NCBI GenBank assembly: GCA_030145365.1
Contig: JAQYVS010000101.1
Location: forward strand, 1 to 35,010
Direction: 5' to 3'
DNA: 35,010 nucleotides
DNA from: Desulfofustis sp.
GTDB lineage: Bacteria; Desulfobacterota; Desulfobulbia; Desulfobulbales; Desulfocapsaceae
In this document: piece by piece, positions 10,452 to 33,921 of the stretch
Layout of the letters: each line of letters begins with the position of its first letter
How positions within the stretch are numbered: position 1 is the stretch's first letter
Notes under the pieces: model-generated
Databases searched by the model: none
What the model was told of the DNA's origin: nothing
The model's input: the letters and a program-made list of their open reading frames with translations, nothing else
Made by a program: the position numbers and the translations under genes

Positions 10452-12092
10452 TTGAAAAAACAGAGCGAAACAGAAAAAACAGTAGAACCTGATTCATTGC
10501 TTGCTCAGAAGGACAAACGCATTAACGAGCTTGAAAAAGAAATGCGCGAACTCCGAAGAGCCCTGGAAGAGGTGCAGAGAAGCAGCCAGGCAAAAACTGA
10601 GTTTCTGGTAAGCATGGGACATGAAATCAGGACCCCGATGAACGGCATCATGGGAATGACCAATCTAGTTCTGGAGACTGAGCTGGGTTCTGAACAGCGC
10701 CGCCAGCTGGAAATGGTTAATACCTCGGGTGATCGATTGCTCGATGTAGTCAACGATATCCTGGATTTCTGTAAGATGGAATCCGGTGCATTGCAGTTGA
10801 ATCACGAGGACTTTAAATTGACCGACAGTCTGGATTGCGATCTCTACCTGCTGAAACTGTCGGCCAAGCAAAAAAACATCGATCTGGTGTATCAGGTCGG
10901 CCGCGATGTTCCGGAATTTCTCAACAGTGATCCGGACCGGCTTGTTCAGGTTCTCGTCAACCTGGTCAATAATGCGATAAAATTTACCGAAAAAGGGACC
11001 ATTAAGGTTCTTGCCGAACATCTCGGCGACGACGATCAAGGCCGGATTATTCTCAAGTTTTCGGTGGCTGACACCGGAATTGGTATTTCTGAAGACAAAC
11101 AAAAGATTATCACCGACAGCTTCAAGCAGGATTATAGTGAGTATTCTGGGAAGTTCTGGGGTGGCGGACTTGGGTTGACCATCTCGGCACAGCTTGTCCA
11201 TCTTGCCGGGGGAGAAATAGGGCTGGAATCCGAATCCGGTGAAGGGGCAACGTTCTGGTTCACCTGGACATTTAATAAGACAGCAAAACAAGCAGCCAAG
11301 ACTGAATCTCCTGGTATCAGCGAAGAGTCCACGCAAGATATCACCTACAAGTTTGAAAACATGAGGGTACTGCTTGCTGAAGATGAACCAATAAGCCGGA
11401 TACTGATTGAAACCTTGCTTCAGCAGGTTGGACTGAGTGTCACCGCCCTGGAGAATGGGCGGCAGGCCCTGGATGAAGCGAAAGAAGGGGATTATCATGC
11501 TATCTTGATGGATGTTCAGATGCCGATTATGGATGGGCTTGAGGCAACGAGAAAAATCAGAGCTCATGAAACCATTCATGGAGGTCATGTGCCGATTATT
11601 GCTCTGACAGCCCATGCCATGCACGGAGACCGGGAAAAATGTCTGCAGGCCGGAATGGATGAATATCTGACGAAACCGTTGAGTAAAGCCGCGTTATATG
11701 ACGTCTTACACCACTATCTGACGAGTTATGCACTGGTGGTTGACGAGGACCCGGAAAGCAGGCAGGAAATCGTAGAGTTTCTGATTGAGTCCGGCTGGCA
11801 GGTGAGCCTGGCGGAAACTGGCAGATCGGCAATGTATGAAGCTTCACTGACTCATTTCGATTTGGTTATTATTGATATAGGGCAGGAATCTGGTGATGGT
11901 GCGGAAATGGCCAAGGTTATCCGCCGGCTGGAGGAGTATTCTGGACGCCGATCACTGATTCTTGGCCTGAGAAGCGATGCAGCATTAGACGAGTTCTTAC
12001 AGGCATGTCTTGATAGCGGGGTGGATGGTTTTATTTCGCGCCCTCTTGATCTGGAAGCTTTGAGGGATCAGATTGATCACCACACAGGTTAA
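10452..12092 (+). CDS. Hybrid sensor histidine kinase / response regulator (soluble; coiled coil-HisKA-HATPase-REC-REC-like)
   Basis: [73 protein letters not shown]; second REC-like domain at the C-terminus; TTG start. Confidence 0.9.
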
Positions 12093-12128: not shown

Positions 12129-13169
12129 ATGTCATCATTTTCACACGTCTGTTTGCATACTTTTGGATATGAAATCCCTCCCCGAATTCTGAGTTCCGAG
12201 TTTATCGAAAAGCGTCTTGCCTCGGTTTATGATCGTCTCAAATTGCCCGAGGGAAGATTGCAAATGATGAGTGGTATCCGCGAGCGAAGATTGTGGGAAG
12301 AGGGTACCAGACCCAGCCAGGCCGCAGCGATGGCAGGTAAGAAAACCATTACTGCCGCTGGTGTTGACCCGAAGCAGATTCAATGTCTGCTCTTTACTTC
12401 AGTTTCAAGGGACATGATGGAGCCGGCAACCGCATCTTTTGTCCATCACGAGCTCGGCCTGTCTCCGGGATGTCTGATCTTTGATATTTCAAATGCTTGC
12501 CTCGGGTTTCTCGATGGAATGATCATGCTGGGAAATATGATTGAACTTGGTCAGGTGGAAAACGGACTGGTGGTTTCTGGGGAAACTGCCGAGGGACTTG
12601 TTGAATCAACCATAAAGACTCTACAGGAAGATACTTCGCTGACCAGAAAAACCATTAAGAAAGCGTTTGCCTCTTTGACCATAGGTTCTGGAGCCGTTGG
12701 ACTCTATATGTGTCGCTGCACCTCAAAAGGTGAGGATAGGCCAAGGCTTGTTCATTGTTCATGGATGGCAAATACTGATTTTTCCGATCTCTGTCTGGGC
12801 GGGCAGAGTGCTCCGGAAACGACCCTGATGGCCACTAATTCCGAAGAACTTCTGGTTCAGGGGATAGAAACAGCTCATGAGACCTGGAGTGCGTTCTCAG
12901 CGTCGAGCAACTGGCAGGACAGAGATATTGATTGTTACTGCTGCCACCAGGTGGGTACGGCCCATGCCAAACTGCTTTTTGAGAAGCTGGGATTGGATGC
13001 TTCTAAGAATTTTGAGACACTTGAGTTTTTAGGAAATGTCGGCTCGGTTTCGGCTCCGATCACGATGGCCATGGCAATTGAACAGAACAGATTCCAGCGC
13101 GGTCATAAAGGAGCCATGCTGGGAATAGGAAGCGGGATCAATTGTATGATGCTTGGAATTGAGTGGTAG
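12129..13169 (+). CDS. OleA-like / 3-oxoacyl-ACP synthase III family thiolase-fold enzyme
   Basis: FDISNACLGFLDG (Cys), CCHQVGTAH (His), FLGNVGSVSAP (Asn), C-terminal LGIGSGINCMMLGIEW resembling OleA rather than housekeeping FabH. Confidence 0.82.
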   Translation: MSSFSHVCLHTFGYEIPPRILSSEFIEKRLASVYDRLKLPEGRLQMMSGIRERRLWEEGTRPSQAAAMAGKKTITAAGVDPKQIQCLLFTSVSRDMMEPATASFVHHELGLSPGCLIFDISNACLGFLDGMIMLGNMIELGQVENGLVVSGETAEGLVESTIKTLQEDTSLTRKTIKKAFASLTIGSGAVGLYMCRCTSKGEDRPRLVHCSWMANTDFSDLCLGGQSAPETTLMATNSEELLVQGIETAHETWSAFSASSNWQDRDIDCYCCHQVGTAHAKLLFEKLGLDASKNFETLEFLGNVGSVSAPITMAMAIEQNRFQRGHKGAMLGIGSGINCMMLGIEW

Positions 13170-13179
13170 AAGGTTGGCG

Positions 13180-13767
13180 ATGTCTGAGCATATAAACTCC
13201 ATTCTTGGATCCCGGCTACTGGCACTGGCCAGACAAAAAATCGGCCAGCGCCTCGGTCTGGTCGATGCCGTTGAGCAACCCGACCTGGCGGACAAGGCGC
13301 TGGACCAGTCCCTGGCCACCTTTGTTACCTTGAAAATAGATGGTCAATTGCGGGGGTGTATCGGCAATCTTGAACCAGTGGACTCGCTGCTTGAGTCGGT
13401 GACGCGTAATGGCCTGCAGGCTGCATTTCATGATCATAGATTTTCTCCGCTCAAACCAGAGGAATTTAACCGGATCAGCATAGATATCTCCATTCTCAGC
13501 AGCCCCGAAGCGCTTGACTACAAAGATGGTGATGATCTGCTCGCCAGACTGCAACCCGGGGTTGACGGTATTATTCTGAAGCTTGGCAAGGCCCGGGCCA
13601 CGTTTTTACCACAGGTCTGGGAGCAATTGCCTCAACCACACGCATTTATGGAACATCTCTGTCTGAAAGCCGGTCTGGCCCGTTCCGCCTGGCGGGATCA
13701 ACATCCGGACATTTTTATATATCAGGTGCAGAGTTTTAAGGAGGACCCCGATGCAGCTGATTCTTGA
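13180..13767 (+). CDS. AMMECR1 domain protein (AmmeMemoRadiSam system protein A-like)
   Basis: FVTLKIDGQLRGCIGNLEP, AAFHDHRFSPL, ISILSSPE, FLPQVWEQ motifs. Confidence 0.9.
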   Translation: MSEHINSILGSRLLALARQKIGQRLGLVDAVEQPDLADKALDQSLATFVTLKIDGQLRGCIGNLEPVDSLLESVTRNGLQAAFHDHRFSPLKPEEFNRISIDISILSSPEALDYKDGDDLLARLQPGVDGIILKLGKARATFLPQVWEQLPQPHAFMEHLCLKAGLARSAWRDQHPDIFIYQVQSFKEDPDAADS

Positions 13768-14380
13768 ACCGGAACTGGCGGAACAGCTCAGAATTTTATA
13801 TGAAGACATGGAACGGGCATACGATTCGGTTGCCGTCCAACTGGATCACAGCTGCAACGGCTGCCCGGATAATTGCTGTGATTCCTATTTTCTGCACCAC
13901 ACCTACCTTGAGTGGGCCTATTTGTGGCAGGGCTTGAGTCTTCTCAGTAAGGAACAAAGTACTGCAATCATGGAAAAAGCTTACCAGTACGAACGTGAAA
14001 GCAAAGCTATTATCGAGCAGGGAGAGAGGCCCGGTATCATGTGTCCGCTCAACGAGGCGGGGAAGTGTGTGCTCTATTCCCATCGATTCATGGTTTGTCG
14101 CACCCACGGTGTTCCTGCTTCCCTGACCAGGCCGGATGGGAAAACACTTAGATTTCCCGGCTGTTTCAGATGCCAGGAATCATTAGAGAAAATGGGGCTC
14201 AAAGAAGAAGCGGTTCCTGTAATGGAGCGTACACAATTGTTGCGACGGCTGGCCATGCTCGAACAACGATTTCTCGAAGGCAGGAGGCATCTGGCCCCGA
14301 GGGTAAAAAAAACCATTGCCTCGATGTTGACCAGTGGTCCGCCGGAACTTTCTCATTGCTCTGATCTAAAAGATAAGTAG
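13751..14380 (+). CDS. YkgJ-like cysteine-cluster protein
   Basis: CNGCPDNCCDSYFL ... CPLNEAGKCVLYSHRFMVCRTHGVP ... FPGCFRC; start overlaps the previous gene by 17 nt. Confidence 0.75.
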   Translation: MQLILEPELAEQLRILYEDMERAYDSVAVQLDHSCNGCPDNCCDSYFLHHTYLEWAYLWQGLSLLSKEQSTAIMEKAYQYERESKAIIEQGERPGIMCPLNEAGKCVLYSHRFMVCRTHGVPASLTRPDGKTLRFPGCFRCQESLEKMGLKEEAVPVMERTQLLRRLAMLEQRFLEGRRHLAPRVKKTIASMLTSGPPELSHCSDLKDK

Positions 14381-14394
14381 AACAGGAGTCAGCA

Positions 14395-14901
14395 TTGAAA
14401 CTTAAAGTAACAGGCAAGCAGCCGAACTCCAAAAGTTGCTTTGTCTGCGGCCTGGAAAATGGCTATGGCCTAAATAGTCGATTTTATGAGTTGGAAAACG
14501 GTGAAATCATGGCTCGTTTCTCGCCTTCTGATGAACATCAGGGATATCCCGGGCGATTGCACGGAGGGCTTGCCGCTACAATTCTAGATGAAACGATTGC
14601 CAGGGCAATGATGAATCATGAGGAAAGTGCGGTATGGGGAGTAACCGTCGAGTTTTCGATGAAACTCAGGAAACCGGTGCCGCTGGATCGTGAGGTGATC
14701 GTCATTGCCAGAATAACAGAGGAAAATAGACGGACATTTCACGGAACCGGTGAAATTGTTTTGGATGATGGCAGTGTTGCCGTCGAGGGAAGTGGACGAT
14801 ATTTAAAAATGGCCCTGCCCAAAATCACTGATTTTGATTTTGACGGCGAAGGTTGGCAAGTTGTTGAACAGGAAGATGATCCAGTTGAAGTTGATCGCTA
14901 G
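14395..14901 (+). CDS. PaaI/hotdog-fold thioesterase family protein
   Basis: GYPGRLHGGLAATILDETIARAM motif, hotdog-length ORF with N-terminal CFVCGLEN; TTG start. Confidence 0.83.
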   Translation: MKLKVTGKQPNSKSCFVCGLENGYGLNSRFYELENGEIMARFSPSDEHQGYPGRLHGGLAATILDETIARAMMNHEESAVWGVTVEFSMKLRKPVPLDREVIVIARITEENRRTFHGTGEIVLDDGSVAVEGSGRYLKMALPKITDFDFDGEGWQVVEQEDDPVEVDR

Positions 14902-17900
14902 CACCAGCGTCTGTAGTGGAAGAAGCATTGATTGGCAGGTGGATGGTAAATGTCGATCCCTCACTGGTCGCCGATGTGAATGTTATGTCTCCACCATGGC
15001 TTTTGACAATTGAGTAAGCGATAGCCAATCCCAGGCCAGTTCCGTCCATTTCCTCCTTTGTGGAAAAGAAAGGTTCAAAGATATGCCCCTGATTTTCAGG
15101 GGTAATTCCATGACCGGTGTCAGACATCTTCAAGGTAACTAGATTCCTGTCATGGGTGGTTTTTACCGACAAAATACCTCCCTGTTTTGCCATCGCATCA
15201 CCACCGTTAATGGCCATATTAACGATTACCTGCGTGATCTGGTCCTCGATCGCGACAATATCGGGGAGGTTGTCGGCCAACTCGGTTATCACGGACACCC
15301 CGGAATTTTTAAAACTTTTCCGTTGAAAAAGCAGTACGTTTTTCACCGACTCATTAAGGTTGAACCTGCTCTTGAGGCCGCTGGAAGGCCTGTGCAGATC
15401 GTGCAGGTCGTCCATCAACTTTTTCATACGGTCACACTCTTCAAGTCCGACTTCGATTAGAAGGTGATCTTCGTCACTTAAATGTGAGCGATTGGTGAGA
15501 TCGTCCAAAAGATATTTGATTCCTATCAGGGGATTTCCGAACTCATGGGCAATTGAGGCTGAAATACGCCCCATTGCCGAAAGTTTATCGGCATGCAAGA
15601 GTTGAATCTGGGCCTGTTTTCTTTTGGCAGTTTCCGCGTGCAGGGCCTGGACGGTTCCTTCCAATTCTTCATAGAGCATAGAATTTTTGATAGAGATGGC
15701 AGCTTGCGAGGCCATCAACTTCAGAATCTCAAGTTTGTCTGAATGAAAGGCCCCAGCTGTAAGGTTGTTTTCCAAATACATCAGGCAGACTATCTCCCCG
15801 TGATGGACAACTGGCATACAGAGAATCGATTTAGATCTGTTTTTTCTGACATATTCATCAGAGGTAAAGAGACCCTGTTCATGGGCGTTATGGAGGACAA
15901 CGGTTTTCTGCGATCTAATCACATAGTTTACAATTTTTTGAGATAACTCACCCGAAGTGTCATTGAGATTGTAATCAACAATTTCAACATGGTGTCCATC
16001 GATCTTGGCTTTGACTTTAAGCATCCATTCATTTTCAATATCCAATAAAAGGCAGCCTTTTTGAGCGCCGCTATTTTCAATCAGAATGGCTATCATCTTC
16101 TTGAGCAATTCATTCAGTTCAACTTCTCCGATAAAAGCTCTCGATGCTTTGACCATGCTTAAGATATCGAAACGATTCGTGTCTTCTGCAATGATAGATG
16201 ATCGGTGAAATCCTGTATTATGGTGAACCGGTTGGCTTTTCTCAAAATCCTGTGCCGAGTATTTCCTGGTGATATAATCGATCAGTTGTGTTGCCCCCCA
16301 ATCTGAATAGCATGAGAGCGCTTCATTCAGATATGGCTTGGCAATGTGGAGCCGGCCGAGTTCAAAATAAAAATGAGCGGCACGCTCATAGATGAGCCCT
16401 TCTTCCTGGAGGTAACCATTTTTTGCGGCCAATTTAATGGCCCGGTCGTAGTGTTCAGCAGCCTCGTCTTTTTTGTTCAGAACCCTGTTGCGTTCGGCAA
16501 CCAGCAAATGATATTTATGTTGGTAATTTTCGGGTGCCGTTGAAGCCCATAGCCTCATGTTTTTCAGTCCGGCATCAATTTTTCTTAATAATGTTTTTCG
16601 GCCTAAGGTGCTTTGGGAGTGATACATACCAAGCAGACTCAGACCGTGGTAGAAATAAAAATTTGGTATATAAACTGAAGCCACAGCGTTATTGACCAAT
16701 TTCAGAGCTTTCGAACCCTGGGAGACGGCCATGTCATATTCTCCAAAGAGATAGGCGTGCATCATACTCATGGAGTGAAACATAAATAATGTGGTGTAGT
16801 CGCGAGTATTTCTATGAACCGACAACAGCTTGGCACTATCGTAAAATTCTCCGTCCACTATGGATGGGTTTTTATTTTTACCAAGCAGATTGGCAATACT
16901 TTGTTGGAAGATCATGAGCCGATAGAGAGGAATTTGTTGTTTCAAGGCCGCAATTGTGTCGTGTTGCCTCATCAGTTCCAGCTCAAGATTGGTCAAATTC
17001 TGTCCTAAAAAGAAGAGACGGACGCAGTAATTGTATGCGCTACTGGCGGCTAATTCCCTGTTACCGATGTCCTTGCTGAGGTGAAATGATTTGATAAGAG
17101 GGGCAAGGGTGGAATTCAGGTGCTTTTTCCAGTGAACCACCAGATTGTTGATCAGAAAGATTGTAATAGCAGAGCTTTTGTACCTGTTCTGCTTTTGTAT
17201 ACCGAGCACGAGTTGGCCGAGCTCATAGCCTCTATCAATATTGGTTCCATTCAGGCCGCACAATAAAAAACTGTAGATAGTATAGCCCATTATTCCGATA
17301 GCCTTGTGGCTGCCGTATTTAAACCATTTTTGTATTATCTGATGACTAATGATTGGCAGCAGGTTTTGTCGTGTATAATATGCCGCACTGACCATTTCCA
17401 ACAGAATATCCATTACTGCTCGCTGGTGCGGATCTGTCATTTCCGGAAGATGAGTGAGATCGGTGGCTTTTTTTCCCTGCAGCATAAATTTTAGGCAAAG
17501 CATGGCTCTGCGAGCACTTGTTTTTGTTGGGTAATTGGGGATTTTTACCCCGAGTTTGGAAAGTACTTCCCGCCCGGTTAAAATTACATCGTTGAGACGA
17601 TTTGCACTTTTATAGCTCTGTATTCTGATGAGGCAGGCTGGTGTTTTGTCGAGTATGCTTTGAGCTTTATTGTTTATTTCTGCAAAAATTAATTCTGTTT
17701 CCTCACTGATATTTTTATATGATGCAGCCTTGAGGAGTTCTGTGTGAACAGCAAGGGTCAGCGCGTAGCGATTTTCCCAATCGGTTTCGTCTGAAAGCAG
17801 CCCCACAGCGGTTTGGGCAAACTGGTAATGATAATCGGAGCCGGCTGAGGTTCCGGCTTTCTTCGCCAGCAGTAGGTTCAGTTCGGCAAGCTCAAACCGA

Positions 17901-20086
17901 TCCTTATCCTTGGTGGCAAGTGAGCGGCCTTTATTGAGATGCGTGACGATATCGTAGATTTTATCGCTTCTGGTTTTATCGGATAAGGTTCGCAGCATAG
18001 CCTGACCTATCCGCCAATGGAGATGGGGGTGGTCTTGAACTGGAATCAACAGATACGTTGCTTTATGAATTTGATCATGGCTAAATTGAAATGTTTTTTC
18101 ATGGCCCAACCACCTTCTGGGGGAAGTGTGCGCATCTGTCACGATTATCAGACCGTCTGCAATCGGGTCCGCCAGTTCGTTGAGAATTTCTTCCTCAGTT
18201 TTTCCGGTGATCGCTTTAAGCAGTTTCAGGCTGAAACGTTGGCCAATACAGGAAGCAGGTTTAAGCGTCGACAGTGTATTCTTGTTGTACTGGTAAAGGT
18301 GTTTAACCAGCATCTCACCAACATTGGACATAACCTTTGCGGTTTCCAGGTATTCAAGATCAATTGTCCATTTGGAATTGCTGTGATCAAAGGTGAGATG
18401 TCTGGTTTTGTATAATTTACGAAGCAGCTGTTTCAGAAAGAAAGGATTTCCTGCAGTTTTGTTCAGGCATAGCTCCGAGGCCAGGGATGTGGATTCGAAT
18501 GAACTGCCAAGAAATTCGCTTAATAGTGATGAAATATCACCTCTGGTCAATGAAGCCAGGTTTAGTGTCTGTGTAGCGGTTGTTTCTCCGGGTTTGAGTT
18601 TTTGTTCATATGCGGCCAGGCGCTCTAAGGTGCTCCCCGGTATACAGCCGATAAAAAGGCCAATCGAAGATGTTCCAATCAATTCGGAGATGAGTTCCTG
18701 CGACTCCTGATCGGCCCAATGCAAATCATCTATGAAAAACACCAGAGTGGAAAGCTGATCGGCGAATGCAGTTATGAAACTTTGAAGAAGGTGTCCGAAT
18801 CCATCTGTCTTTACTCCAGTGTAGCCTGCAACCTGTTTCTGTTTTCCGATGATCAGTTCCATCTCTGGAATGACGTTAACTATATCGTATGCCCGGTTGC
18901 CCATGGACTTCAAAAAAACGCCTTGCCAGCGGCTGATTTCTTCGTTGTTTGATAGAAGAAGCCTTCTGGCCAAATCCTGGAGGCCATCGATGACTGCATT
19001 GTAGGGAATGATATTGTTTTTCTGCGCCGTACTGCGCAAAACAGTCCCACCGTCAGCTTCTATGAACGCAAGAACCTCATTGACCAGCGAGGTCTTTCCT
19101 ATTCCCGCTTCTCCGGTAATCAGAAAAATCTGCTGACCACCTTTTTTTACTTTGTCGTAGGTATCAAGAATCGCCGCCCGTTCTGCCCCTCTTCCACAAA
19201 ATGATTCGGGAAGCGGCAGGTCAAGATGATCTTTTTGTCCTATTGGAAAATCAACGATTGACCGTGTGTCTTTCATCTCGATCAGGCATCTCATCAGATC
19301 AGAGGTGAGTCCGCTACTGCTCTGATATCGTTTTTCAGTAGACTTATCCAATAGTTTCAGGATTATTCTAGAGATACTGACAGGGATTGTTGCATCGAGT
19401 TCATGGGGTGGGACCACTGTGCGGGCCAAATGACTGTGCATCTGTTCAACCGGATCGTCAGTTGAGAAAGGTACCGATCCCAAGAGTAATTGATACAGGG
19501 TCGCCCCTAGTGAGTAGAAGTCGCTTCGATAATCCAGTGCCTGATTGAGCCTACCCGTCTGTTCCGGCGAAATGTAGGGTAATGATTCTTCAGGTAGTTG
19601 GTTTACTGAATAAAGAGAGGAAACCTTTTCAGCGGATGAGGCAAGGCTGAAATCAATCAGCTTGATCCGTCCAGTATTCGGTCGGTAAAGGATATTGGCA
19701 GGATTGAGATTATTATAGATAATCTGCTGGGTGTGGATAGCCTGCAGGGCACTAGTTAATTGCACGCCGATGTCAAGGAACCAGACAAGGTCGTGTGCTC
19801 CCCGACCGTTTTCTTCGGTAAGATCACTACTGTTGAAATCCTCGAGAATCAGCGCCAAGCTGCGATTATGGGGCTCGAGACCAATGGGAGATACGATCTT
19901 ATTGTGACGGAAAAGGCTGTATATCTCGTATTCGTGTCTGATTCGATCAAGATCGGAAGAAGAAGGGTGGGTTTGTCTCGGCAGCTTCAATGCAGCCGTT
20001 TCTCCTGTTTTCTTCGATCCGCGGTATACGATCGAACGCTGAGATTCACTCAGTTTTTCGGTTATGCTGTATCCGCAGATTTCCAT
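14825..20086 (-). CDS. Giant multidomain signalling protein: Ser/Thr kinase-like domain - AAA ATPase - helical repeats - GAF - HisKA - HATPase_c (HstK-like multi-kinase family)
   Basis: 1753 aa; kinase-like IDFSLAS and SPEQTGRLNQALDYRSDFYSLG; Walker A GEAGIGKTS, Walker B FFIDDLHWAD; GAF KGCLLLD; AHEFGNPLIGI; DTGHGI; GTGLGLAI. Confidence 0.93.
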   Translation of the reverse strand: MEICGYSITEKLSESQRSIVYRGSKKTGETAALKLPRQTHPSSSDLDRIRHEYEIYSLFRHNKIVSPIGLEPHNRSLALILEDFNSSDLTEENGRGAHDLVWFLDIGVQLTSALQAIHTQQIIYNNLNPANILYRPNTGRIKLIDFSLASSAEKVSSLYSVNQLPEESLPYISPEQTGRLNQALDYRSDFYSLGATLYQLLLGSVPFSTDDPVEQMHSHLARTVVPPHELDATIPVSISRIILKLLDKSTEKRYQSSSGLTSDLMRCLIEMKDTRSIVDFPIGQKDHLDLPLPESFCGRGAERAAILDTYDKVKKGGQQIFLITGEAGIGKTSLVNEVLAFIEADGGTVLRSTAQKNNIIPYNAVIDGLQDLARRLLLSNNEEISRWQGVFLKSMGNRAYDIVNVIPEMELIIGKQKQVAGYTGVKTDGFGHLLQSFITAFADQLSTLVFFIDDLHWADQESQELISELIGTSSIGLFIGCIPGSTLERLAAYEQKLKPGETTATQTLNLASLTRGDISSLLSEFLGSSFESTSLASELCLNKTAGNPFFLKQLLRKLYKTRHLTFDHSNSKWTIDLEYLETAKVMSNVGEMLVKHLYQYNKNTLSTLKPASCIGQRFSLKLLKAITGKTEEEILNELADPIADGLIIVTDAHTSPRRWLGHEKTFQFSHDQIHKATYLLIPVQDHPHLHWRIGQAMLRTLSDKTRSDKIYDIVTHLNKGRSLATKDKDRFELAELNLLLAKKAGTSAGSDYHYQFAQTAVGLLSDETDWENRYALTLAVHTELLKAASYKNISEETELIFAEINNKAQSILDKTPACLIRIQSYKSANRLNDVILTGREVLSKLGVKIPNYPTKTSARRAMLCLKFMLQGKKATDLTHLPEMTDPHQRAVMDILLEMVSAAYYTRQNLLPIISHQIIQKWFKYGSHKAIGIMGYTIYSFLLCGLNGTNIDRGYELGQLVLGIQKQNRYKSSAITIFLINNLVVHWKKHLNSTLAPLIKSFHLSKDIGNRELAASSAYNYCVRLFFLGQNLTNLELELMRQHDTIAALKQQIPLYRLMIFQQSIANLLGKNKNPSIVDGEFYDSAKLLSVHRNTRDYTTLFMFHSMSMMHAYLFGEYDMAVSQGSKALKLVNNAVASVYIPNFYFYHGLSLLGMYHSQSTLGRKTLLRKIDAGLKNMRLWASTAPENYQHKYHLLVAERNRVLNKKDEAAEHYDRAIKLAAKNGYLQEEGLIYERAAHFYFELGRLHIAKPYLNEALSCYSDWGATQLIDYITRKYSAQDFEKSQPVHHNTGFHRSSIIAEDTNRFDILSMVKASRAFIGEVELNELLKKMIAILIENSGAQKGCLLLDIENEWMLKVKAKIDGHHVEIVDYNLNDTSGELSQKIVNYVIRSQKTVVLHNAHEQGLFTSDEYVRKNRSKSILCMPVVHHGEIVCLMYLENNLTAGAFHSDKLEILKLMASQAAISIKNSMLYEELEGTVQALHAETAKRKQAQIQLLHADKLSAMGRISASIAHEFGNPLIGIKYLLDDLTNRSHLSDEDHLLIEVGLEECDRMKKLMDDLHDLHRPSSGLKSRFNLNESVKNVLLFQRKSFKNSGVSVITELADNLPDIVAIEDQITQVIVNMAINGGDAMAKQGGILSVKTTHDRNLVTLKMSDTGHGITPENQGHIFEPFFSTKEEMDGTGLGLAIAYSIVKSHGGDITFTSATSEGSTFTIHLPINASSTTDAGASDQLQLDHLPVQQLANLRRQNQNQ

Positions 20087-27576: not shown

Positions 27577-28299
27577 TTATCTGTTATTGAGAATATCTTC
27601 AATGGTTCGGCCCTTAACCAATGTTTGGAAGATCGTTTCGATTAACGGGACAACAATTTCCGCTTCTTCTTCACCGATTAAAAAACCTGGGAGCGGTTGA
27701 GCCGTAAGACAAGAGTCTCGAATTGCAGACCGATCGTGTTTGCTCCTCAGGTGTAGCCCCTCTGACTCATCTGCCAGGAGATAGAGGATGTGCAGCATAT
27801 TGCCCCAGGGGTTGAATTGATCAAGGTGTTCAATTATCTGGGAGAGGGTCGTTGCCGCAGAAAGGTGAGAAGTAGGCAACAGGGCGCTTTGCCCTTGAGA
27901 ACAGGTGATTGTTGAGGCAAAACAACGGCAGGCAAATGGCCGGGCCGGATATACCGCACACAGTTTGTTTTCTAAAAACGGACAGACAGCATCAAATGTA
28001 CCTTCTGCTATTTCCGTCTCCTCCCCGCTAAGGCAGGCCTTAGCAAACTCGTTGGTCGTCTGCTGGACCTTGGTATCCGGCAGCAACTCCAGTTTTTCCG
28101 AAAGCCACGATTCTTTTTTGTTCTCTTTTATGAAATTAAATAGAAGTGCACCCTCGACAGTGGTCATGGTGACGTTCTGGGTGCAGCATACGGCACAGCC
28201 TTTACCGCAGGCAACGGAGAATTGCTGTGACCAGTCATCAAAGTGATCGAAAATCTTTTGAAGTATTTGTTGTTTCATATCGGTTTGCCCACTATACAA
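27577..28299 (-). CDS. YkgJ-like cysteine-cluster protein (putative Fe-S/metal binding)
   Basis: CGKGCAVCCTQN ... CPFLENKLCAVYPARPFACRCF; true start may be ATG at 28278. Confidence 0.82.
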   Translation of the reverse strand: MYSGQTDMKQQILQKIFDHFDDWSQQFSVACGKGCAVCCTQNVTMTTVEGALLFNFIKENKKESWLSEKLELLPDTKVQQTTNEFAKACLSGEETEIAEGTFDAVCPFLENKLCAVYPARPFACRCFASTITCSQGQSALLPTSHLSAATTLSQIIEHLDQFNPWGNMLHILYLLADESEGLHLRSKHDRSAIRDSCLTAQPLPGFLIGEEEAEIVVPLIETIFQTLVKGRTIEDILNNR

Positions 28300-28439: not shown

Positions 28440-29252
28440 ATGGATTATCTCAACATCTCCGGTAAATGCTTTGTAGTTTTTGGTCTGGCAAATAAAAAAT
28501 CCATTGCCGCCGCCATTTCCAAAACCTTGATTGAACATGGTGGCGAGGTGCTGCTGGTGGTACGCTCCAAAGAGCGAAAGAAAACCACTGAAAAGCTTTT
28601 TCCCGGATGCCCTGTTTTTGTCTGTGACGTTGAAGAGGAAGAGCAGATAATCCGAGTACAGAAAGAGATTGCAGCAAATTTACAGGCCCGTGGAAAGACG
28701 TCTGTGCACGGCCTTGTTCACTCTATTGCCTTTGCCAATTACAGTGATGGAATCAAGCCGTTTCATGAGACACGTAAAAATGATTTCTTACAGGCGGTTG
28801 ACATTTCCTGTTTCTCATTTGTTTCCATTGCAAATCATTTCAAGGAGATCATTGATCCCGATGGATCGGTTGTGACCATTTCCATATCCACGACCCGGAT
28901 GGCGGCAACAAACTATGGGTATATGGCACCGATCAAAGCTGCCCTTGACTCATCACTCTGTTTTCTGGCAAAAAGTTTTTCAGATTTTTCCCGTATTCGT
29001 TTTAACGCCGTAGCCCCGTCATTGTTGAAAACATCTGCATCTGCAGGAATTCCAGGTTACATCGACAGCTATTTGTTTGCCGAGAAGGCCATGCTGCGCA
29101 AAAAAGCCCTGACAACTCAGGAGGCCGCTAACGCCGCTGTTTTTCTGCTCTCGGAGCGTTCTTCGGGAATCAATTGTCAGACTATGGTGGTGGACGGTGG
29201 TATGGGGGTTAACTATTTTGATAGTGAAATCATAAATAAATCAGTGAGCTGA
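28440..29252 (+). CDS. Enoyl-ACP reductase (FabI-like) short-chain dehydrogenase
   Basis: [34 protein letters not shown] (Y-x6-K), [25 protein letters not shown]. Confidence 0.85.
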
Positions 29253-29262
29253 GAAATCAGAA

Positions 29263-30108
29263 GTGTTTATGCAGCCACCAGCCAAGCATCAATTTCGAGT
29301 CGACTCAGAACGTTGTATTCGGTGTGGAGAATGCGTTAACGACTGCCCGGTCAATATTCTGGTAATCGGAGAACATAACCCCACGGTTGCAGAGGGGAGG
29401 GAACAAGACTGCATAGGATGTCAGCACTGTCTGGCCGTTTGTCCCACCGGAGCGGTTTCTGTTCTGGGTCTGCGATCCGAAAATTCCTATCTGCTTGATA
29501 GCGTTGGCTTACCATCTTTAGAGCAGTGTGAGCGCTTACTCAAAGGCCGTCGCTCGGTCAGGCGATATCTGGATGAGGATATCGATCCTGCCCGTATCCG
29601 GCAATTGCTGGAATTTGCCTATCACGGTCCTTCGGGAAGAAATGCGCGAGAATTGTCGTTTTCAGTTGTTGATAATCGACTGGTGATGCACAGGATCCGC
29701 GAGCAAACCATGGAGGGGCTGTCCGCGCTGGCAAAAAAAAATCAATTGCCACCAGGTTTTGAATTCTTCACTGATATTGTCAATGGCTGGAATACCTATC
29801 AGGCCGATGTGCTTTTTCGCTGGGCACCTCACCTGCTGGTAGTTTCGGCACCCGAAGACAGTGCTTCGCCGGAGCAGGACGGGATTATTGCTCTGAGCCA
29901 TTTTGAGATTGCAGCCCAATGTGCCGGTATCGGGACACTGTGGAACGGTCTGGTTAAAATGGCGGTGAGCCTGATTCCTGAACTGCCCACCGCACTCAAT
30001 GTACCGGATGGTAATCTGATTGTTTTTACGATGAGCTTTGGTAGGCCCGAGGTCAGTTATACCAGAGGTGCGCAGTATGAGACTATTCCAATCAGAATTG
30101 TAGAATAG
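29263..30108 (+). CDS. Nitroreductase-family protein with N-terminal 2[4Fe-4S] ferredoxin domain
   Basis: CIRCGECVNDCPVN and CIGCQHCLAVCPTGA; nitroreductase RRSVRRYLDEDIDPARIRQLLEFAYHGPSGRNAREL. Confidence 0.92.
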   Translation: MFMQPPAKHQFRVDSERCIRCGECVNDCPVNILVIGEHNPTVAEGREQDCIGCQHCLAVCPTGAVSVLGLRSENSYLLDSVGLPSLEQCERLLKGRRSVRRYLDEDIDPARIRQLLEFAYHGPSGRNARELSFSVVDNRLVMHRIREQTMEGLSALAKKNQLPPGFEFFTDIVNGWNTYQADVLFRWAPHLLVVSAPEDSASPEQDGIIALSHFEIAAQCAGIGTLWNGLVKMAVSLIPELPTALNVPDGNLIVFTMSFGRPEVSYTRGAQYETIPIRIVE

Positions 30109-30129
30109 CCTGACATTTTAGAACACATA

Positions 30130-30444
30130 TCAGAAATTGATCGGAACCTTCGGTTTGATCAAGAAACCGCTGCCGCTTGCTCCGCCGCAGGTTCCCTGGG
30201 TGCCGATGGTAAAATTGATGGAGATGGATTGGCAATAGCGCATCAGGCTGCCCTCGACTATGAGCGGAACCCCATGTGTTTCATCGACGAAATCCGTATC
30301 ACTGGATTCATCTATGATTAGCCCGAGGCTCGGCCCCTGATTTCCACCTCCCATTACAGCAATGCGTATGGCTGATTTTTCACCGCCCTCAGCTGCGAAA
30401 AACTCCTCAAGTTTTATCAGGGCTTCAGAACTTACTTCAAGCAT
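30130..30444 (-). CDS. HesB/IscA-like protein (HesB-related, selenoprotein-type subfamily, Cys form)
   Basis: 104 aa; VMGGGNQGPSLGLIIDE and GTCGGASGSGF; canonical IscA three-Cys set not conserved. Confidence 0.75.
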   Translation of the reverse strand: MLEVSSEALIKLEEFFAAEGGEKSAIRIAVMGGGNQGPSLGLIIDESSDTDFVDETHGVPLIVEGSLMRYCQSISINFTIGTQGTCGGASGSGFLIKPKVPINF

Positions 30445-30470
30445 ATTCTACTCTGGATTGGCTAAAAAAT

Positions 30471-30503
30471 AAAGAGCCTGAAGCGATATGCTCCAGGCTC
30501 TTT
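30471..30503 (-). terminator. Rho-independent terminator downstream of oadB
   Basis: AAAGAGCCTG-N13-CAGGCTCTTT, perfect 10-bp arms; on the minus strand followed by ATTTTTT. Confidence 0.88.
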
Positions 30504-30524
30504 ATCAATCTACAGGTATGGTGA

Positions 30525-32039
30525 TTAAAGCAGTGCCAGGAGAACACCCGCTGCCACAGCAGAGCCGATAACGCCAGAAACATTGGCTCCCATGGCGTGC
30601 ATGATCAGGTGGTTCTGCGGGTTGGCTTCCAGTCCCACTTTGTTGACAACCCGGGCTGCCATGGGAACTGCGGATACGCCTGCCGCACCGATAAGCGGAT
30701 TGACCGGGGTTTTGGAAAGTTTGTTCATCAACTTCGCCATCAGCACACCACCGGCGGTTCCGATACAGAAGGCAATCATACCAAGGGCCAGGATGCCAAG
30801 CGTTTCCATATTAAGGAACTTGTCCGCCGACAGCTTACTGCCGACTCCAAGCCCGAGAAAAATGGTGACGGTATACATCAAGGCGCCTTTGATATTGTCG
30901 GAAAGACGATCAACAACGCCACATTCTTTTGCCAGGTTGCCCAGCATGAACATCCCGATCAGCGGTGCTGCTGTGGGCAGCAGGAATGCACAGATGCCAA
31001 GGACCAGCAGTGGGAGCATCATTTTTTCAAGCTTTGATACGTGGCGAAGCTGGACCATTTTAATCTTGCGTTCTTCTTCGCTGGTCAGCCATTTCATAAT
31101 CGGTGGCTGAATGATTGGCACCAGGGCCATATAAGAATAGGCGGCAATGGCAATAGAGCCGAGCAGGCGCGGAGACAATTTACTGGAAAGAAAGATTGCC
31201 GTAGGCCCGTCGGCGCCGCCGATGATGCCGATTGAGGCAGCGTCGCGCAGTGAAAAGTTTATTCCCGGTACCAGATCTGACAGAAACAAGGCTCCCAGCA
31301 GGGTGACAAATATACCGATCTGAGCGGCACCGCCGAGCAGAATCGTTTTCGGGTTGGCGATCATCGGTCCGAAATCAGTGAGCGCTCCGACACCCATGAA
31401 AATCAGCAGCGGAAAAATACCGGTGACAATGCCGACTTCATAAATGTAGTACAAAATACCACCTGGCTCAGATATACCGGCTAGCGGGATATTTGCGAGG
31501 ATGGCGCCGTAACCGATCGGAATTAACAGCAGCGGTTCAAACTGTTTGAAAATCCCCAGATAAAGCAAGCCTAAACCGACGCAGATCATCAGGATTCGGC
31601 CAATGCCGACGGTCCAGTCTTTGCTGGTTTGACCGTCGATGATGCCGTAGACACCGGTGGTTTTAAAAAGGTTTCCTATCAGGGCTCCGATGCTTGGCAG
31701 TTCCTGGCTTTCAGAAGCCAGGGGACGGTCGGCAATAATGGATGCCGTATTGATTGCACCCACTTGAGCATCTTTCTTGATTTTCTGATAGGAGTGGACG
31801 TCTATGGATGATACCGTGCCTGAGACGCCGGCCTTAAGAATGATCGTGGTGCCGTCGTCAGCTTTTACTATGGCCAGTGTATCGCCGCTGAAAACCTTGT
31901 CTCCGGGAGCAACATCGAGACGAATGATTTTACCGTCAGACGGTGAGACGATCGAAACACTTTCTCCGGCTGCCTGGGCGAAAGAAATTGCAGCCAAGCA
32001 GAAACCGATAAGCACGAACAGAATAGTCTTCGTTTTCAT
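30525..32039 (-). CDS. oadB: Na+-translocating decarboxylase beta subunit with signal peptide and N-terminal biotinyl/lipoyl-like domain
   Basis: OadB core ([45 protein letters not shown]) preceded by [25 protein letters not shown] and a biotinyl-like domain; ATG at 32039 preferred over the 32204 ORF start. Confidence 0.93.
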
Positions 32040-32065
32040 AGTGATTCCATCATTGAAACGAGATC

Positions 32066-32098
32066 TGTCGTCAAACCGGTAACACCGATTTGACGACA
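32066..32098 (-). other. Strong intercistronic hairpin between oadA and oadB
   Basis: TGTCGTCAAA-C-CGGT-AAC-ACCG-A-TTTGACGACA: 14 bp with one C.A mismatch and AAC loop; no T tract. Confidence 0.85.
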
Positions 32099-32124
32099 AA
32101 GGGTAAAGCAGTAACCTGCGTATA

Positions 32125-33921
32125 TTAACCGAGGGTGAAAAGCGAATCCGATGCCTGCACGGTGTCACCGGCAGAGATATGAATCGCCAGAATCTTGCCG
32201 TCACTTGGAGACTTAACCTCGGACTCCATTTTCATAGCTTCCAGAACCAGAAGCGGCTGATCTTTTTTGACGGAATCACCAACATTAACCATTATCTTGA
32301 CTACGTTACCCGGAGTTGGTGCTTCGATTTCAGTACCGCCGGTTACCGGAGCCTCAGCAGCAGGGGCAGCCGCCTGAACAGGTGTTGCCTGAACAGCTCC
32401 GTTTCCTTCTGCTACGGTGACATCGTAAATTCGGTTATTAACCGTGATAGAGTATGACCTCGGGCCTGCCGAAACGGTTGCAGCTGGGGTAGCCTTGGCA
32501 GCCGGCTTGGCCGGAGCAGTATCTTCATCGGTTTTCTTTCGTACGTTTATCTTGCCGTTACCAAGCAGAAAATCGAGACCTTTCTGTTCGCAGCTGGCGA
32601 TGATAAAGAGGTTTTCGTCATTTACCGTTAAGTTGTTTTCTTCCAGGATCTTCGTTGCTTTGGGAATACCCGGCTCGAGAATGTCCAACGGATTTTCGGT
32701 GAAAACCGGTTTGCCCAGTTGTTCCGATGCCAGCTTTACAATTTCTGGATCGGCCGGGACCGGGGTCCTGCCGAAGTAACCAAGCACCATGTTGCCATAG
32801 GCCGGGTTGATCTTCTTCCATTTCCCTTCAGTGACATTGAGATATGCCTGCTGGAAGTAAAATTGTGATACCGGTGTAACAGAAGAGCCGAAACCACCCA
32901 ATCTGACGACCTCTGACATCTCTTTGATGACTTGTGGGTAGAGATGCAGCGTTCCCGTGTCACGCATCATCATCGTGTTGGCTGTCAGAGCTCCCCCTGG
33001 CATTGGCGACAGGGTAATGGTGGGAGACACCATTTTCGCTTCAGGCGGAAAAAAGTAATCCTTCATTGCATCTTCAAAGCTCTCTTCGGCAGCCAGGACT
33101 TTCTCATAGTCAAGGTCGAGTGTAAAGTCGGTTCCTTTAAGGACATGCATCATTGACAGGATGTCTGGCTGGCAGGTTCCTCCACTGACAGGACTTTTTG
33201 AAAGGTCGATTCCGGTTGTTCCACCCTCGATTGCCGCCAGGTTTTGGGAGATGCCAATTCCTGCTGTATCATGGGTATGGAACCAAAGTATCGTGTCTTC
33301 CGGGACCATCTTCCGGGCACCCTTAAAGGTGTCATACACTTTTCTGGGATTGGCAGTACCGCTGGCATCTTTGAAACAAATTGAGTGAAAAGGAATATTA
33401 GAGTCCAGAATCTGCTGCAGCCGCTCAAGATAAAATTCAGCAGTATGGGCACCGGTACACCCCGGGGGCAGGTCCATAAGGGTAACAACGACTTGATGGT
33501 TGAGGCCGTGATGGGCAATTCGCTCGCCTGAATATTCCAGGTTTCTTACGTCGTTGAGAGCATCGAAGTTACGAATGGTTGTCATGCCGTGTTTCTTAAA
33601 CATCTTGGCATGCAGATCGATCATGTCTCTGGGCTGCTGACTTAAGGCGACGACATTAATACCACGGGCGAGTGTTTGCAGGTCAGCATCGGGCCCAACC
33701 TCAGCCCGGAAACGATCCATCATGTCAAAAGCCGATTCATTGCAGTAGAAAATTTGACTCTGGAAGCGAGCACCACCACCGGCTTCTAGGTGCATGATTC
33801 CGGCATCAATGGTCGCCTGCAGTGCAGGAAGGAAATCGTCGGTTAAGACTCGTGTGCCGAATACTGACTGAAAACCGTCCCGAAAGGACGTATCCATAAA
33901 CTTGATTACTTTTTTACCCAC
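32125..33921 (-). CDS. oadA: Oxaloacetate decarboxylase alpha subunit / pyruvate carboxylase subunit B-like, with C-terminal biotinyl domain
   Basis: [17 protein letters not shown] carboxyltransferase start, ...[14 protein letters not shown]-terminal biotin site [11 protein letters not shown]. Confidence 0.94.

Follow-up and report, generated by a model that had tools for sequence, protein, structure and literature searches.

An oleA gene of Desulfofustis sp. as a probable piece of a hydrocarbon pathway with scattered genes and a probably polyunsaturated product

Genes at the locus

The DNA analysed here, called the window, is a stretch of 35,010 nucleotides from Desulfofustis sp. and contains four genes arranged head to tail on the plus strand, which encode an OleA-type synthase, AMMECR1, a YkgJ-like Cys-cluster protein (YKG) and a hotdog thioesterase. 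These genes and two others to which the analysis refers are as follows:

10452–12092, plus strand, hybrid histidine kinase/response regulator, gene ends 36 nt before oleA (two response-regulator matches)
12129–13169, plus strand, OleA-type thiolase, an acyl-CoA head-to-head condensing enzyme (NF006720, residue mapping, tree)
13180–13767, plus strand, AMMECR1, AmmeMemoRadiSam component A (TIGR04335; AMMECR1 family, 4e-46)
13751–14380, plus strand, YkgJ-like Cys-cluster protein, YKG (cysteine motif; PF03692 weak)
14395–14901, plus strand, hotdog-fold (4HBT) acyl-CoA thioesterase, THEM2/THEM4-like (PF03061, 1e-10; PDB matches to THEM2/THEM4)
28440–29252, plus strand, FabI-like enoyl reductase, FabI' (15 kb from OleA; co-occurs with OleA)

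The tight same-strand packing noted in the preliminary description was confirmed, with a 10-nt gap between the OleA and AMMECR1 genes, a 17-nt overlap between those of AMMECR1 and YKG and a 14-nt gap between those of YKG and the thioesterase. The best start of AMMECR1 is the ATG at 13180; the listed TTG at 13153 would overlap OleA. The thioesterase gene starts with TTG, and Shine-Dalgarno-like sites are found before YKG (AAGGAGG) and before the thioesterase gene (AGGAG). The hybrid histidine kinase gene adjoins oleA in part of the family, and the two genes are possibly on the same transcript. On the other side, a minus-strand gene for a 1753-aa protein (14825–20086) runs convergently into the thioesterase gene, its 3' end overlapping that gene by 77 nt; from its sequence, the protein looks like a fusion of kinase, ATPase, GAF and histidine kinase parts.

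None of oleB, oleC and oleD was present among the window genes scanned, a family scan that ran rightward from about 6.5 kb and passed over the 1753-aa protein, which agrees with the preliminary description that they are not nearby. The region 29263–32204, considered as an oleBCD candidate by its length, turned out to encode a ferredoxin-nitroreductase and an OadB-type decarboxylase subunit. The ferredoxin-nitroreductase gene (29263–30108) follows FabI', and 30525–33921 encodes two oxaloacetate-decarboxylase-like subunits, alpha and beta, of which beta has an N-terminal biotinyl/lipoyl-like domain. No RNA family scored over threshold in the window or in locus L162.

The order OleA-AMMECR1-YKG was kept in 65 of the 70 related loci that had enough downstream flank, and hence this arrangement is not due to chance. 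The thioesterase was found in only 26 of these 70 loci and is an optional member of the block; a contig of Desulfofustis glycolicus DSM 9705 (L060) carries it together with OleA, AMMECR1 and YKG. Gene order is thus conserved as far as YKG, and the four-gene block by itself is an ordinary conserved neighbourhood.

Identity of the synthase and the genes that track it

The synthase scored 432.5 bits with the NCBIfam OleA-type model NF006720 (cut-off 285), matched the PDB 3row/4ku5 family with an E value of 6e-61 and shared 35% identity with X. campestris OleA in an alignment spanning its full length. The Cys-His-Asn triad ascribed earlier to this thiolase-fold protein is retained as C124/H273/N303 by residue mapping. 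In addition, E98-P99 aligned with the catalytic Glu117-Pro of X. campestris OleA; Glu followed by Pro at the catalytic Glu site is a published mark of OleA (PMC7064751), and the Glu117-equivalent was E in 22 of 22 OleA rows and M in 5 of 5 FabH rows. A FabH identity was rejected on the scores (95.8 vs 292 for TIGR00747 and 109 vs 249 for NF006829) and on the tree, where 22 OleA rows split at 100/100 from 5 FabH rows belonging to the same order and the synthase fell with OleA, outside housekeeping FabH. The tree was restricted to OleA and FabH, with PqsD/ChlB-type proteins left out, as was the FabH locus L179, which yielded no usable frame. The X. campestris row formed a long branch in this tree. 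By these sequence measures the window synthase is a true OleA, the enzyme that opens the head-to-head hydrocarbon pathway of the Ole type, and its condensing activity is predicted.

The genes accompanying OleA were counted in 58 genomes of the order, of which 49 were OleA-positive (46 over cut-off and three with fragments) and 9 lacked OleA; the counts are raw and made over related genomes, and P values from them are not literal. FabI' was present in 47/49 OleA-positive vs 0/9 OleA-lacking genomes, the CrtI-like dehydrogenase Crt2 in 46/49 vs 0/9 and OleC in 48/49 vs 1/9. When FabI' and OleA were counted by family, the split was 9 to 6 with no exception. By contrast, YKG is a single-copy gene found across the order in 57 of the 58 genomes, including 9/9 without OleA and 48/49 with it, and AMMECR1 was present in 48/49 and 8/9, respectively. 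Thus, OleA is tracked by FabI', OleC and Crt2, and not by YKG or AMMECR1. One sister-family genome (G055) has OleC without OleA or Crt2.

The genes that track OleA are found side by side in sister families, where KAS-ACP-Crt1-Crt2-FabG-FabZ-FabI'-OleA-OleB-OleC-OleD form a contiguous block (L104, L111, L168, L169, L170, L205 and L206), either complete or short of one or two members, which are absent or went undetected. FabI' lies directly upstream of oleA in several of these families and adjoins it in L104, L111, L168, L170, L205 and L206. Furthermore, a locus of the same phylum but outside the order (L203, G086:C4:2500-22400) has the set differently arranged, with oleABCD lying between its Crt1 and Crt2 genes. 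In the family of the window, KAS-ACP-Crt1-Crt2-FabG-FabZ were found about 10 kb from oleBCD across the tol genes, within about 20 kb (L162–L167 and L171; the L171 stretch ends before KAS and ACP). The genes of the block are scattered in this family: KAS, ACP, two CrtI-like proteins, FabG and FabZ lie near oleBCD, which are convergent, OleA is found elsewhere next to AMMECR1-YKG, and FabI' has been relocated 15 kb from OleA. OleA and FabI' are the two pieces in the window. A second Cys-cluster protein, over the PF03692 cut-off, is encoded in the window at 27577–28299, and a ferredoxin-nitroreductase gene lies on the other side of FabI' as given above.

The gene content is best read as that of OleA in a scattered, probably polyunsaturated, hydrocarbon pathway, and we consider this reading probable. 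OleA would join two acyl-CoA chains head to head, giving a beta-keto acid that OleD would reduce; OleC would then make a beta-lactone, and OleB would remove CO2 to give a long alkene. The acyl chains would probably be polyunsaturated and made by the FAS/CrtI-like set with neither oxygen nor a Pfa synthase, and C31-type polyenes would be the expected product. For the complete scheme, in which a divergent FabF, ACP, two CrtI-like dehydrogenases, FabG, FabZ and FabI' supply polyunsaturated acyl groups, oxygen-free and Pfa-free, to OleABCD for C31 polyenes across the Desulfobulbales, with OleA and FabI' of the window as two scattered pieces, we see the chances as about even.

A parallel is Desulfotalea psychrophila, for which C31:8 and C31:9 hydrocarbons have been reported, along with FASII clusters that include phytoene-dehydrogenase-like genes and a lack of polyketide PUFA synthases (PMC2649909). 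No genome among the 58 had PfaA over cut-off, and the own genome of the window (85% complete) gave only a malonyltransferase-like match. Multidomain synthases resembling Pfa were seen in four sister-family genomes (G043, G045, G054 and G055), all scoring below the cut-off for PfaA. The CrtI-like proteins matched carotenoid desaturase/isomerase models below cut-off only, and anammox relatives of these proteins gave no detectable polyunsaturated products in E. coli (PMC4790861); we thus take the polyunsaturated product as a fair inference and not as a result. The OleA reaction in this organism and the action of the CrtI-like proteins as desaturases are put forward in the same conditional sense.

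The pathway could instead run as proposed on ordinary saturated or monounsaturated acyl chains, with the CrtI/FAS set making something else. X. campestris condenses both saturated and unsaturated chains (PMC7064751), and four loci outside the order (L199, L200, L202 and L204) carry the set in whole or part with no ole genes nearby. However, sister families have the set and oleABCD joined in a single block, L203 has them joined in a different arrangement, and the C31:8 and C31:9 reported for D. psychrophila in the source cited above point the same way, which makes ordinary chains a possible but rather unlikely alternative. The supply of polyunsaturated chains to OleA remains our preferred reading, and it is the scatter of the genes together with the likely oxygen-free and Pfa-free precursor supply that makes the gene set unusual, OleA itself being ordinary.

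Neighbours of oleA and the oleBCD genes of relatives

AMMECR1 of the window scored 198.6 bits with TIGR04335 (cut-off 99), and the radical SAM partner family TIGR04337 was over cut-off elsewhere in the own genome (G000:C264). The match of YKG to PF03692 was below cut-off (16.6 bits vs the gathering score of 23; E = 0.013), and the label "YkgJ-type" in the preliminary description therefore rests on the cysteine motif. Comparison of YKG with solved structures gave nothing meaningful.

It was considered whether AMMECR1, YKG or both serve OleA or the Ole pathway as genuine accessory factors, for instance in a metal- or radical-SAM-linked maturation step, because of their adjacency to OleA in 65 of 70 loci from many genera. 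The adjacency is also seen beyond the family, in family f4 (L008) and at L099, L107, L109 and L110, L017 and L041 keep OleA next to YKG with AMMECR1 absent from the spot, and a PF03692 gene occurs in the ole region of X. campestris as well (PMC7064751). Against this, nearly all OleA-lacking genomes have both AMMECR1 and YKG, the two genes are paired away from OleA in L185 (f12), and in L184 AMMECR1 sits in a trio with a radical SAM gene and a Memo-like gene; with only 40% identity to the window protein, this L184 AMMECR1 may not be the window gene moved. A role as accessory factors is thus improbable in our judgement. As AMMECR1 and YKG are about equally present without OleA, they are probably neighbours and not members of the ole pathway, and these two and the thioesterase would be co-transcribed neighbours of oleA with other jobs.

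The claim that OleA is an orphan did not hold in its family. OleC was found once in each of the 36 other family genomes searched, and oleB and oleD adjoin oleC in every family oleC locus fetched (L162–L167 and L171), of which L162 and L163 belong to the same genus as the window. OleC of these relatives passes the NF006754 cut-off, its next matches being olefin beta-lactone synthetase models, and the best matches of their OleD are 2-alkyl-3-oxoalkanoate reductase models, below the cut-offs of these models. Thus, OleA is not an orphan, at least in its family.

The genome search for oleBCD had a divided outcome, the genes being found in the family genomes but neither OleC and Crt2 nor any oleBCD in the own assembly (G000), a 2.87-Mb MAG that is 85% complete and has its closest matches in Desulfofustis. 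The core gene TolB, which lies between OleC and Crt2 in relatives, was also not found in this assembly, and its contig C215 opens partway through an aminopeptidase gene, the one next to oleB in relatives. Because TolB is missing too and C215 breaks where oleB should begin, the absence of oleBCD is best explained by an unassembled region, and we infer that oleBCD are present in the real genome of this organism. Contig C84 also matched the oleB flank, but over a short stretch and in a contig with other genes, and was uninformative. The opposite view, a real loss of oleBCD in this species with OleA feeding a ketone or beta-keto acid or decaying, takes its strength from the finding that G000 is without OleC and Crt2, which 36/36 and 35/36 of the other family genomes possess. 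It is very improbable, given that TolB is missing as well, that the flanking contig stops where expected, that OleA is intact with all catalytic residues and that FabI' has been kept. Least probable of all is the idea in the preliminary description that the thioesterase, together with AMMECR1 and YKG, releases or modifies the beta-keto product in place of OleBCD, which would suit the tight one-strand packing, the conserved OleA-AMMECR1-YKG order, the acyl-CoA type of the thioesterase and an own assembly with no oleC match, but is opposed by the lack of a thioesterase at most loci, by relatives that carry both thioesterase and oleBCD, by the occurrence of AMMECR1 and YKG without OleA and by the position of the own absence in an assembly gap.

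Taken as a piece of a scattered and probably polyunsaturated hydrocarbon pathway, this OleA leads to the question of where the double bonds come from in strict anaerobes that are reported to make C31:9 without a Pfa synthase. A similar question exists for ladderane lipids, among whose proposed genes are ones for comparable FabF and phytoene-dehydrogenase-like proteins. The FAS/CrtI-like set, joined to oleABCD in several lineages, offers a defined list of genes that could be co-expressed with hydrocarbons as the read-out.

Comparison with known systems

The nearest known system is OleABCD of X. campestris and Shewanella, with which the present genes share the OleA family and its Glu-Pro, Cys, His and Asn residues, as well as OleB, OleC and OleD homologues in relatives. 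Unlike that system, the genes here are dispersed, oleA is found away from the others next to AMMECR1 and YKG, it is co-inherited with a FabI-like reductase, and oleBCD were not found in the own assembly. AMMECR1 of the window is component A of AmmeMemoRadiSam, and the radical SAM family of that system is encoded elsewhere in the own genome, but in the window component A is found alone beside oleA.

As in the present set, the FASII clusters of D. psychrophila combine unusual genes for FabF, ACP and phytoene-dehydrogenase-like proteins, and the host is likewise an anaerobe that lacks a polyketide PUFA synthase; the likeness to the DP2405/DP2406 set is drawn from the published description and not gene by gene. 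In the part of that publication used here (PMC2649909), the cluster is not tied to ole genes, whereas the present set is linked with oleABCD in sister families. The Pfa and Ole systems that make C31:9 in Shewanella and Geobacter bemidjiensis (PMC4882568; PMC3098273) are similar in the dedicated supply of precursors to Ole and in the expected class of product. They differ in the source of these precursors, which here would be CrtI-like proteins together with a type II FAS, in an order where the 58 genomes searched had no PfaA over cut-off.
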